A stretch of DNA of 64,000 nt. It comes from Onchidella celtica (Eukaryota; Mollusca; Gastropoda; Systellommatophora; Onchidiidae). The number at the start of each line of letters is the position of its first letter. The first letter of the stretch is position 1. Where the stretch lies: assembly GCA_963931925.1 (NCBI GenBank), contig OZ007575.1, positions 30,721,244 to 30,785,243 of the forward strand. Reading direction: 5' to 3'. The notes beneath the pieces were generated by a model that saw only the letters and a list, made by a program, of their open reading frames with translations, made no database searches and was not told the DNA's origin. Position numbers and translations under genes: made by a program. Below are positions 24,643 to 38,862 of this stretch, in pieces.

Positions 24643-24763
24643 ATGGCGTCACTGTGGAAAGTCATTTCTCTATGGAAGTTTTGGATTTTAACATCAGCTA
24701 TAGTATTTCTGTCAGATGGCGCAGCCGTTCTTTCTGATGAGAAAGTGAAATATGATCATTCAG
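24643..24763 (+). CDS. gene A exon 1 (signal peptide)
   Basis: ATG at 24643 has A at -3 and G at +4. It is preferred to the upstream ATG at 24622, which has a poorer context. The 40 codons start MASLWKVISLWKFWILTSAI and continue through a hydrophobic run to FLSDGAAVLS, a plausible secretory signal peptide. The exon ends TTCAG before GTAGTT in phase 1, matching the phase-1 start of exon 2. The junction codon becomes GAA (Glu). Confidence 0.68.
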
Positions 24764-26137
24764 GTAGTTTAGCTGTTGTCTGCATTTCAAGGGCTGATTG
24801 TATATCGGTGTTTGGCCGTTTATCTCTGCTATGTTACGGAAAAACGCATTACAAGCCAGTCTAGGTCAAATTCACTTACTTAGGAGACTTTTATGGATGA
24901 GCTCTGTATTTCCATTTGGGATAAATCTTGTGTGACAAATAGTTTACTTTGGTCATCACAAAATAGAATTTGAACAAAGTATGACACATAATGCAACTTG
25001 GCATAAGACGGTGCGGTGTTTTTTTTCCAACTTCTGTTTTTGGACCACACGGTCTTTTGTTGTAACACGACCTACCTGCTGTCAACTGTTCTGTAGTTGT
25101 TGGACTTAAAATATATAATTGTCTCCATTTTATGAAAGACTATATATGAGCTTTATGGCCAGATTTGGTTTAATTTGCACGGTGAATGTTTTAAAGTAAA
25201 TTTTTCATCCTAAGATAAAAGTTAGGATTAGATGTATTTTAAGCACAAGTGTAAGAATAAGGTCGTATGAAGTATAAAGTTTAGAAGCTCGTATTCTTCG
25301 TTAAAATTCCGGCTCTGTGACACTGATCACTACAATTGTTATCCACAACAATCTTTCGTTGCAGTCATGACTACAATAACATTTTCGGAAATTAGCCGCA
25401 ATCATTATGTGAGCACTGTGGCTATCTGACCCTATCATAAACAGATCTATCATTGACATTTATGTCACATCTCAGGAAGAGCTAGTCTAGGTCTCTGTCG
25501 TGTGGCCATTCATAATTAGATGAAGTGAGTACAATGATTGTTATTTTTGTACCATTTGTAAACTACATCCCCCCCACCACCACCATCTCCGCGCTTTCTA
25601 AGACAATAAATAATCCCAGAATGGACGGGCTTGCGGTTGAGCGATACTATCAGAAGGTCAGAAAGCCGAGAGGATTGGAGGTTTGCTGCCAGACTGCCTG
25701 TAGCGTCCCAAACGGTCCACAGGACTACGGAATAGAGAGAGAGAGAAAGAGAGAAAGAGAGAGAGAGAGAGAGAGAGAGAGAGAGAGAGAGAGAGAGAGA
25801 GAAATAATATTTTATTTATTTATGTGTTGTCATTGTCTGAGCAACTTTTTAAAAATTCAAATAAAGAAAAGTTAGGCCCTTGGTAGTAAGCCCGCTCTTC
25901 TCTGAAACAGAACGACAGCTTCCTCTGGACCCTTCCAAAACACCTCTGCAGCTGAATTATCCAGTGGGTGACAACATGCTGGAGTGCGGGCGTTCGGACC
26001 CTTTCCATGCAGATACTCAGGTGGAGTGGGTGGTCAACGGCAAAGTGTTGACTACTCAGCCACTTACACAGGGACAAACTCATGTGTATGAAAGCTTCGA
26101 TGCGATAATCGATCTACTAGGCAACTATCCCGGCACT
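24643..26137 (+). CDS. gene A: secreted or membrane protein with an Ig-like domain (5' part)
   Basis: Gene A is supported by three plus-strand exons: 24643-24763, 25911-26137 and 27881-27949. Spliced, they give a signal peptide, a 75-residue conserved block and a 23-residue block. A Cys in NMLEC, a Trp in QVEWVVN and a later Cys in ILCRITD are spaced like the Cys, Trp and Cys of an Ig-like domain, with LGSNLLIWV as a possible last strand. This family assignment is inference. The strongest support that it is a real gene is a paralogue, gene B, on the opposite strand with exons of identical length and phase. The 3' end is unresolved. Confidence 0.72.
25732..25802. repeat. (GA)n microsatellite in gene A intron 1
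   Basis: About 70 bases of GA, just 110 bp before exon 2. Confidence 0.93.
25911..26137 (+). CDS. gene A exon 2
   Basis: Acceptor CTGAAACAG, then 227 bases, then donor GTGAGT. It enters in phase 1 and leaves in phase 0. Key words are LPLDPSKTPLQL, DNMLEC, DTQVEW and HVYESFD. About 34 of 75 residues are identical to the gene B exon at 38636-38862, with no indel, which is strong evidence for purifying selection. Confidence 0.85.
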
Positions 26138-26256
26138 GTGAGTTGAGATATAGTACGTAATAACTAGCTATTAGAGCTCTTAAACACACACACAATGAGA
26201 GAGAGGGAGAGGATTCGCTCTAAGGCGCTGAACTAAAATTAGGAAGAGGATTAATA

Positions 26257-36118: not shown

Positions 36119-36176
36119 TTACAGACGAACGTATGCATTTAGAAGAACAAACAAACAGACAGAAATGTCCACTTAC

Positions 36177-36245
36177 AACCCAAATGAGCATGTTGCTCCT
36201 CAGATCTGTCTGTGTGACGGCTTTGTCTGTCACTCGGCACTGCAT
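36177..36245 (-). CDS. gene B exon 3
   Basis: Acceptor CCTTCTATAG, 69 bases encoding MQCRVTDKAVTQTDLRSN and MLIWV, donor GTAAGT. Phase 0 at both ends, as in gene A. Confidence 0.85.
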
Positions 36246-38862
36246 CTATAGAAGGAATACACTATAATTATTATCCTAGGAGTGCACAAGCCGATTTTGA
36301 TGGGTGGACGATTTCGATGGTGACGTCACAACACAATGAGTTTCAGTGAGATCCCCAGCACCAGTCGTCTAGATGCATCCAAAGATACTAGAATTGATAA
36401 GATAAGACAGCATGTGCTTTTAGCGTGCACAGATTTGGCACCGCCACCTACGGGCAAACGCACAGAAGTCATGAAAAGTGTCGTATTTACAAAGCCAGAT
36501 AGGGAAATTATTAAATTTTGTTCACTGTTCAGCTATCGCTATAGGCCTTGATTGACGTCACCTATTGTGGAATTATAACTTCAATCGCTGTGGGAAAACT
36601 CTGGCTTTTTTTTTTTTTTAAATCTCAGTAGCACTGTCACAATTTTGCCTCATAAATTTACCATTATAGCAAGCATTATTTTCATACTATGGGCCATGGG
36701 TCCCCCCCCCCCCCCGCTCAGCGCGCAAATTGTGTGCACGTTTTTTTTTTAAAGTGGTGTCTCATCTTATCGTTTCTAGTATCTTTGATGGATCTCATTC
36801 AAATTTAATGTCTTCACGCCACCATCCAACTAGTTGGCCGATCAAAACCGGCTAGTGCGCATGTCTCGGCTCACTGTCTGAAACATCACCACTAATCTGC
36901 TCTCTCAAGACAACACAGAGAACATGCTGGGGAAGGAGTGGCATATAAGGTACACGGGTTTACGTCCCTTTAGAATGATAAGGTTCTAACTCCCTTCCAT
37001 CAACTTTGGAGAAATCGAGGATTGAAGTTTCAGGTGATCTTAGCTTTTAGAGCAAATAATTTATTATTTTTTGTTTTTAGTAATACTTAGAAATTACACA
37101 TCGAATCTGCATGATACTTCGACACAAAGTGGAGAAGGCCCGTAGAAGTAGTGTGTGGTGTGTAACTCAGTTCAGCCCAAGAATGGACATAGAACTTTGT
37201 CATTCTAAGGGGACGCATAGTCAGGCACCTATTGCATGATTGTTCTGGGCGTTAATCGCCGAGTCGTGTCTTTCCTATAATCATATACACCTAGAACATG
37301 ACTCCGGGTTTTAAAAAATGTAGTAACTTCGTGGCTAGTTTAGTAATTAATAAACTGAGAGCTGGAACTGAAGTCTAGTTTTTTGTTTTTTTCTCGCCAT
37401 TTGTATTTCTATTTAATTGTTTGGACCGGCTGTTCAATTAAACATAATCTGCTCACGTAAGCCACCCACGTTTTGTTAACGGGAGGCCTTAATTACTTGC
37501 CGGCATGCACATCAATTTCGGCAATCACCCAAAACAACATCACTGAACGTAAACAAGTCGATTGTTGTTAGGGGACCGTAGCGTAATTTGTATTTGTATT
37601 TTGCATTTGTATTTGTATATTACTTTAATCCCAATTGTGAAATTTGCCTTCGTGCCATTGCATCCGGTTACAACTGGAGCAGCCACGTCGTCGTCACAGT
37701 ACAGCGCCGGTCGGCCGAATAGAAAAAACCCCGAGTTGTGTTCACTGTTCAGCTGTAGGTTACTATGGACAAAACTACGGTCCCCTAACCACAGCTACGA
37801 AATTATTCTGCAGTAAATTGTTAATGTTTACGTGTGAAGTGCAGATTGGTTACATATTCCGTCAATTTAAACAGTGCAGTATTTGGTTTTCACTGGGCGT
37901 GTCCCCTGGGCGGGGGTTGGGAAAACCGCACATAGTTAGAAACAATTACTATGTGTAAATGAAATCCTCACGGATTCGTTTGATGTTTTACTCTGGTTTC
38001 ATTTGATTCTGCTAAACGTTGTGCTGTTCACACACACACCAGTGAGCGTCATAGGATAAAGTGAAAAGGTCTCCCTTTTTGGAGCGTTGTTTTTTTTGTT
38101 GTTGCTTTTTTTGCCAGTTCTATAGAAAGATGTATCTTGCCTTGTGCTCATTATGTTGTTTTATTTGTTCGCAATAAACACGTTACAGAACAAAAAATAA
38201 TGAAAGTAATCAGTGATAGACACGCGTGACAAAAAAAAAATGATTACAACAAAACACGTTTACAGCCTGTGGTGCGTAGTGTGAGTGTGTGCGTGTATTT
38301 GTGAGGGAACTTGTGTGTGTGTGTGTGTGTTGGGTGGGTGAGCGCGTATGTGTTTGTGTGTGTATGTGTGTATGTGTGTGTGTGCGTGTGTGCGTACTGA
38401 TTGAATATATTTGGTCCACATAGCCGAAATGTTCACGGTGGTGATTATTTTTTCTTAACGAACTAATGGTCAAGTTCCGAATCCAAAAAGTTATTGTGGC
38501 TGTGTTTCGTTAATGAAAACTCTGTTGTGGAGAACTTGAAAAATCTAGAGGGAGGGAGGGAGGGAGAGAGAGAGAGAGAGAGAGAGAGAGAGAGAGAGAG
38601 AGAGAGAAAGGTAGGAGGGGGGGGGAGAGAGATACCGTGGTAGGAACACCACCCCAAATATCCAACAGTTCGTCATAACTCTCATAGACGTGGCGCAGAC
38701 CGTGGGGCCAGAAGGTTCGCTTTATCAGCTGATCGTTGATATACCACACAGCCTGGGTGTCGGTGCTGAAGGCCTGGGGACTGGAACATTCTAGCATATT
38801 GTCGTTGTCAGGACCGTAAAGCTGTATGGGGGTCTTGCTGGGGTCCAAGGGGTAACCTCTCT
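36177..38862 (-). CDS. gene B: paralogue of gene A (two exons seen)
   Basis: Minus-strand exons 38636-38862 and 36177-36245 correspond to gene A exons 2 and 3 in length (227 and 69 bp), phase and sequence. The gene would encode the same small possibly Ig-like domain. Genes A and B are convergent, with about 8 kb between their innermost known exons. The signal-peptide exon, expected upstream of 38862 and ending in phase 1, and the 3' exons were not identified. The copies differ at more than half of the positions, so this is an old duplication and not an assembly duplicate. Confidence 0.75.
36288..36857. mobile_element. long-TIR element, 570 bp (family F)
   Basis: Left phrases AGCCGATTTTGATGG, GAGATCC and ATCCAAAGATACTAGAA recur in inverted order at the right (TTCTAGTATCTTTGATGG, GGATCTCATT, ATCAAAACCGGCTAG). 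The inverted arms are roughly 100-130 bp and imperfect. No transposase. A related fragment, CTAGTATCTTTGGTAGAT, is at 58057. It lies just upstream of gene B exon 3, in the intron. Confidence 0.65.
36962..37226. mobile_element. MITE family B, copy 2
   Basis: ACGTCCCTTTAGAATGATAA at the left and TTGTCATTCTAAGGGGACG at the right. Reverse orientation relative to copy 1 at 6591. Confidence 0.82.
37568..37788. mobile_element. MITE family A, copy 2
   Basis: Perfect 14-bp TIR TTAGGGGACCGTAG (37568-37581) and its partner at 37775-37788. Shares GTGTTCACTGTTCAGC with copy 1. Confidence 0.8.
38280..38396. repeat. (GT)n-rich tract
   Basis: Interrupted GT dinucleotide repeat. Confidence 0.92.
38550..38628. 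repeat. (GA)n tract
   Basis: GGGA, then about 44 bases of GA. It ends within 10 bp of the gene B exon 2 donor. Confidence 0.93.
38636..38862 (-). CDS. gene B exon 2
   Basis: Acceptor CATGCACAG and donor GTATCT. Encodes RGYPLDPSKTPIQL, DNDNMLEC, STDTQAVWYIND and HVYESYDELLD. The Cys, Trp, DPSKTP and HVYES positions are shared with gene A. A GA microsatellite lies immediately beyond the donor. Confidence 0.85.

Follow-up and report, generated by a model that had tools for sequence, protein, structure and literature searches.

Here we examine two small genes, A and B, in a 64,000-nucleotide stretch of the genome of the gastropod Onchidella celtica (C9:30721244-30785243; hereafter the window). 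The two genes are convergent and lie tail-to-tail, with A at the left on the forward (+) strand from position 24643 and B at the right on the reverse (-) strand from about position 40138. Gene A opens with a 121-nucleotide (nt) exon (24643..24763, +) that begins with ATG, has the hydrophobic core of a signal-peptide-like sequence and leaves in phase 1 at a GTAGTT donor, which fits the next exon. Exon 2 (25911..26137, +; 227 nt) enters in phase 1, leaves in phase 0 and carries the first part of an immunoglobulin (Ig)-like domain, with a Cys and a Trp, between a CAG acceptor at 25911 and a GTGAGT donor after 26137. Exon 3 (27881..27949, +; 69 nt, phase 0 at both ends) supplies the last part of the domain and its second Cys. 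It has a CAG acceptor at 27881 and a GC-AG donor (GCAAGT) after 27949, and an alternative GT donor one codon upstream of the GC donor would preserve phase 0. In gene B, exon 2 (38636..38862, -; 227 nt) encodes the first part of the domain with the same entry and exit phases, from a CAG acceptor at 38862 to a GTATCT donor after 38636. Exon 3 (36177..36245, -; 69 nt) encodes the last part in phase 0 at both ends, from a TAG acceptor at 36245 to a GTAAGT donor after 36177. The proposed exon 1 of gene B (40048..40138, -; 91 nt) is signal-peptide-like and leaves in phase 1 at a GTGAGT donor. An earlier sequence-only reading of this DNA had described paired exons of 227 and 69 bp in these phases, and their coordinates, lengths, phases and splice sites all check out, as does its signal-peptide exon at the start of gene A. 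It had called the pair both convergent and head-to-head; the first term is correct and the second is not.

The resemblance between A and B runs through both exons. Between the two 227-nt exons, 35 of 75 residues agree (the sequence-only reading had counted about 34), and between the two 69-nt exons 17 of 23 agree, which gives 52/98 for both exons together, without an indel. A tblastn search of the window with the long exon of gene A returned that of gene B (E 1.5e-20), and the short exons match each other (E 1.3e-9). With such values the resemblance is not due to chance. Across the 98 codons, differences favour third positions (39, 27 and 64 at the first, second and third), and the NG86 (Nei-Gojobori) estimates are 0.31 for pN and 0.89 for pS, with saturated synonymous sites. 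Moreover, just one of the six frames is open in each 227-nt exon, and the remaining five contain 1 to 5 stops. Taken together, the third-position bias, the saturation and the single open frame indicate that A and B are functional, anciently duplicated protein-coding genes under purifying selection, in keeping with their earlier description as old, diverged paralogues. Their introns show no alignment except one 30-base match.

A search of the 1.14 Gb genome revealed a third member, gene C, on another contig (C14), with exon phases as in A and B. The long exon of gene C (C14:31883014-31883234; 221 nt) enters in phase 1 and ends at a GTAAGT donor. Its second exon (C14:31885889-31885960; 72 nt) begins with I-Q-C, so that the second Cys is the third residue, as in A and B, and ends at a GTCAGT donor. 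This second exon ranked second by score and a reverse-strand control also exceeded that score; it was accepted because its acceptor, donor, phase and Cys position fit. Over 95 residues, C is identical to A at 35 and to B at 28, with codon-position differences of 50/42/54 and 54/51/59, respectively. A, B and C form a family of at least three. A scan upstream of gene C found no convincing signal-peptide exon (there is one weak candidate, and blocks of N interrupt the upstream sequence). Close to gene C, at C14:31891143-31891301, is a reading frame for which the genome search returned no significant relative.

The genome searches also bear on whether these exons are exonised remnants or the cargo of a transposable element, a possibility that the sequence-only reading had raised against itself. 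The window is indeed rich in dispersed and simple repeats. Yet the long exons of A and of C each found at least three places in the genome and the short exon of B at least two, counts that are lower bounds since only the best-scoring candidates are scored, and among those candidates no family copies appeared beyond A, B and C. This low copy number argues that the A and B exons are not part of a transposable element. The purifying selection between A and B and the splice sites preserved in A, B and C also speak against it, and we regard this origin as extremely improbable.

As to the kind of domain, the landmarks are those of an Ig fold. In both A and B they are C25, W39 and C78, that is, a Cys-Trp spacing of 14 residues and a Cys-Cys spacing of 53, which agrees with the spacing of the B-strand Cys, C-strand Trp and F-strand Cys of Ig domains and bears out the Ig-like spacing noticed earlier. 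The same three landmarks are found in C. Pfam searches matched A to C1-set (PF07654; E 0.037, 14.8 bits against a gathering cut-off of 21) and C to Ig_2 (PF13895; E 0.19, 12.4 bits against 27). Ig families are the sole Pfam matches of A and C, all of them below the cut-offs. A profile built from the three sequences and compared with Protein Data Bank (PDB) chains ranked an MHC-I alpha chain first (E 0.27), and the list includes Beat-Vb (E 0.76). The domain shares its Cys-Trp-Cys landmarks and weak profile matches with C1-set and Ig_2, but it differs from them in its scores below gathering level, in lacking the Tyr two residues ahead of the second Cys and in being split by an intron.

It is the position of this intron that may link the family to VWDE-like proteins. 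A genome search with the D8C profile (PF23283) gave four matches, all elsewhere than A and B, which led to the VWDE-like genes V1-V4. Four spliced Ig domains were obtained from V2, V3 and V4, and Pfam identified that of V4 as Ig_VWDE (PF25776; E 1.4e-6, just over the cut-off). The V2a domain matched Ig_VWDE below the cut-off (E 0.049), V2b matched Ig_3 weakly and V3 had no match. In all four, a phase-0 intron lies two residues before the F-strand Cys and the Ig domain exits in phase 0. The internal intron of A, B and C has the same place and phase, and their exit is also in phase 0. The residues at the second Cys read V-x-C in V2a, V2b, V3 and V4, and I-L-C, M-Q-C and I-Q-C in A, B and C. The arrangement extends to loci related to V3: a phase-0 donor occurs at the expected place in all 10 readable loci out of 14 (L036, L045, L046 and L049 are unreadable), and 8 of the 14 show a second exon of the V-x-C kind (L037, L038, L040-L044 and L047; L039 looks broken and is not counted). 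A, B and C enter the Ig exon in phase 1, as do some but not all genes of the Ig_VWDE type, and most genes of that type have S-N before the last strand, likewise A and B. A local HHalign comparison of the A/B/C domain with VWDE-type Ig domains gave E 0.035, with Cys, Trp and Cys in register. The differences are that A, B and C have no match to the PF25776 profile, that their last exon is 69-72 nt rather than 87-90 nt, and that neither a D8C module before the Ig domain nor a VWD-type exon after it was found. What precedes the Ig exon is a signal-peptide exon, and the phases of the two fit. Full VWDE genes were rejected, as no D8C or VWD part was found, with the limit that short exons could escape. 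At L024 (C8:53240001-53250000, at about 2668-4290), a D8C module is followed by a Thr-rich stretch and by an Ig-like exon in phase 1 that starts E-LPLE and may be interrupted by an intron shortly after its Trp. PMC8930769 mentions VWDE and D8C in other contexts.

Could the domain be a new, non-Ig extracellular domain of one mollusc lineage? The sequence-only reading had suggested an undescribed domain. No family profile is reached above its cut-off, no search put a name on the conserved DPSK, DNMLEC and HVYES motifs, and the titles and abstract openings of the literature surveyed held no pointer to the A/B/C domain. Set against this are the Cys-Trp-Cys spacing, weak Pfam signals that lead only to Ig families, an intron placed as in the Ig domains of this genome's VWDE-like genes, and a PDB profile that ranks MHC-I alpha and Beat-Vb high among unrelated chains. 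We consider a new domain highly unlikely; most likely the A/B/C domain belongs to a known kind from which it has strongly diverged. The profile search proposed earlier yielded Ig-family signals for A and C, though below threshold, and none for B.

A further question is which kind of Ig domain this would be. We lean, with slightly more confidence than doubt, towards A and B being an anciently duplicated, inverted pair from a diverged family of exported Ig proteins with at least three members, whose domain would derive from a VWDE-like Ig module. Alternatively, the domain could be an ordinary, strongly diverged Ig of another family (e.g. one of FREP/VIgL type or from an adhesion protein or neuronal receptor of the Ig class) that has no relation to VWDE, with a coincidental intron position. 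This is possible, if rather doubtful. In its favour, the weak matches go to C1-set and Ig_2 rather than to Ig_VWDE, and the sequence support for VWDE is marginal. The internal intron position and phase common to A, B, C and the VWDE type speak against it. A rough base rate comes from Ig exons at large: 11 of the best 150 of 840 Ig_3 exon matches in the genome end before profile position 75, in a count made by eye on a sample biased towards full-length matches, with the position of the Cys in the model unchecked.

Several results weigh against the VWDE derivation, or against the assignment to Ig as such. No Ig model of Pfam is reached at its gathering score by A, B or C, and gene B has no Pfam match of any kind. 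An NCBIfam search matched only C, and to unrelated enzymes (E 0.13-0.16). Among the PDB matches are unrelated chains as well (VP2, E 0.59; pyruvate phosphate dikinase, E 0.79), and the Tyr expected ahead of the F-strand Cys is absent. On the VWDE side, a genome search with PF25776 gave nothing at E<=1 and missed even V4. Of the four Ig domains from V2-V4, only one scores above the Ig_VWDE cut-off, with one below it and two unmatched by that profile. The intron of V1 lies elsewhere, directly after its Trp region. When the genome was searched with the Ig exon of V3, the 14 loci described above were returned, with A, B and C not among them. Entry phases in the VWDE type are mixed: phase 1 alone fits L041, L044 and L048, phase 0 alone fits L037 and L042, either phase fits L040, L043 and L047, the phase of L038 and L039 could not be read, and V3 itself appears to enter in phase 0. 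Of 200 column-shuffled controls, 5 reached the local HHalign score. The global alignment puts the landmarks out of register (E 0.21), and a HMMER comparison of A/B/C with VWDE-type Ig domains gave no match. For the VWDE exon that follows the Ig domain in V2 and V3, even the best match downstream of A, B or C is not significant (E 0.11). Finally, no exon common to A, B and C was recognised after the Ig part, either by BLASTP of reading frames (best 45 of 1386-1605 matches per pair) or among acceptor-anchored peptides of at least 8 amino acids (at most the best 12 per pair). By sequence, then, the similarity of A, B and C to VWDE-type Ig domains is marginal.

The evidence for export differs between the genes. 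A strict scan for exons with an ATG, a hydrophobic core and a phase-1 donor gave a single candidate upstream of B, at 40138-40048, but failed to recover exon 1 of gene A, whose donor scores low. A looser scan returned that exon as the sole hit for A and 17 for B, many of them overlapping or of low complexity. The candidate leader of B has W-K-x-x-I-L-T in common with that of A, and its local similarity to exon 1 of A was reached in 5 of 2000 shuffles. A genome search with the leader of A returned only its own place and not the candidate of B. Support for the candidate leader exon of gene B is modest.

Downstream matches between A, B and C, among those listed, are repeats or simple sequence, and shorter or more diverged exons could escape; transmembrane-like exon candidates were unconvincing. 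A Pfam scan downstream of A and B covered 150 of 160 selected frames (at least 52 amino acids, not of low complexity, on the downstream strands). It named DUF4562 and two marginal families and none of VWD, EGF, fibrinogen, C1q or lectin domains, with the limit that short exons could escape. The A and B proteins may stop shortly after the Ig domain, or they may extend into further short exons that escaped recognition. The scan also bears on the FREP/VIgL form of the alternative above. Molluscan FREP/VIgL proteins combine a signal peptide, Ig and a lectin-like domain. A and B resemble them in having a signal peptide directly before the Ig-like domain but differ in that no fibrinogen, C1q or C-type lectin domain was named in these frames; an identity of A and B as FREP/VIgL was rejected for want of a lectin-like domain among them.

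Each of A and B has a signal-peptide-like first exon (a candidate in B) and exons of 227 and 69 nt, in phases 1/0/0, which together encode a domain of about 98 residues under purifying selection. Under the VWDE-derived account, this domain would be a disulphide-linked, Ig-like beta-sandwich, with one Cys in strand B, the Trp in strand C and the other Cys in strand F. Ig domains usually bind other extracellular proteins. Since a leader precedes an Ig-like domain under selection, the product may well be exported and bind an extracellular partner at the cell surface or in body fluid. At its C-terminus there could be a short secreted tail, a further domain or an anchor in the membrane. Less certainly, the Ig-like domain would have split off from a VWDE-like Ig module, keeping the intron positions and losing its D8C and VWD neighbours. 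A stronger version, in which a small mollusc-specific family of secreted single-Ig recognition proteins escaped from VWDE-like proteins, shed all their other domains, and the inverted pair was kept for immune or gamete recognition, seems unlikely to us, and an immune or reproductive role of A and B is speculation.

Taken alone, A, B and C are an ordinary small gene family. Their wider interest is that an Ig module may drift past curated profiles and yet retain, in its intron positions, a hint of where it came from. If other molluscs have the family, it would represent a set of exported Ig proteins that lack annotation and would be of use in cataloguing mollusc immune or surface proteins.

At C15:35839916-35939377, Ig_3 matches lie in a dense array, many of them scoring identically and recurring about every 1.78 kb, as if Ig exons had recently been expanded in tandem on a large scale. 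Within the window, an exon-like frame at 43588-43818 (+) matches DUF4562 (PF15123; E 1.5e-14, above the cut-off), the family to which sperm microtubule inner protein 2 belongs. This frame is on the opposite strand to gene B, a little past that gene's proposed 5' end. A frame at 55811-56266 (+) has no Pfam match; by eye, we take it to resemble a PIF/Harbinger-type transposase. The window also contains a run of 200 N (48891-49090), which is either a gap in the assembly or withheld sequence, and a dispersed repeat pair at 29190-29459 and 61132-61422 (+), with 82% identity over 83 residues.

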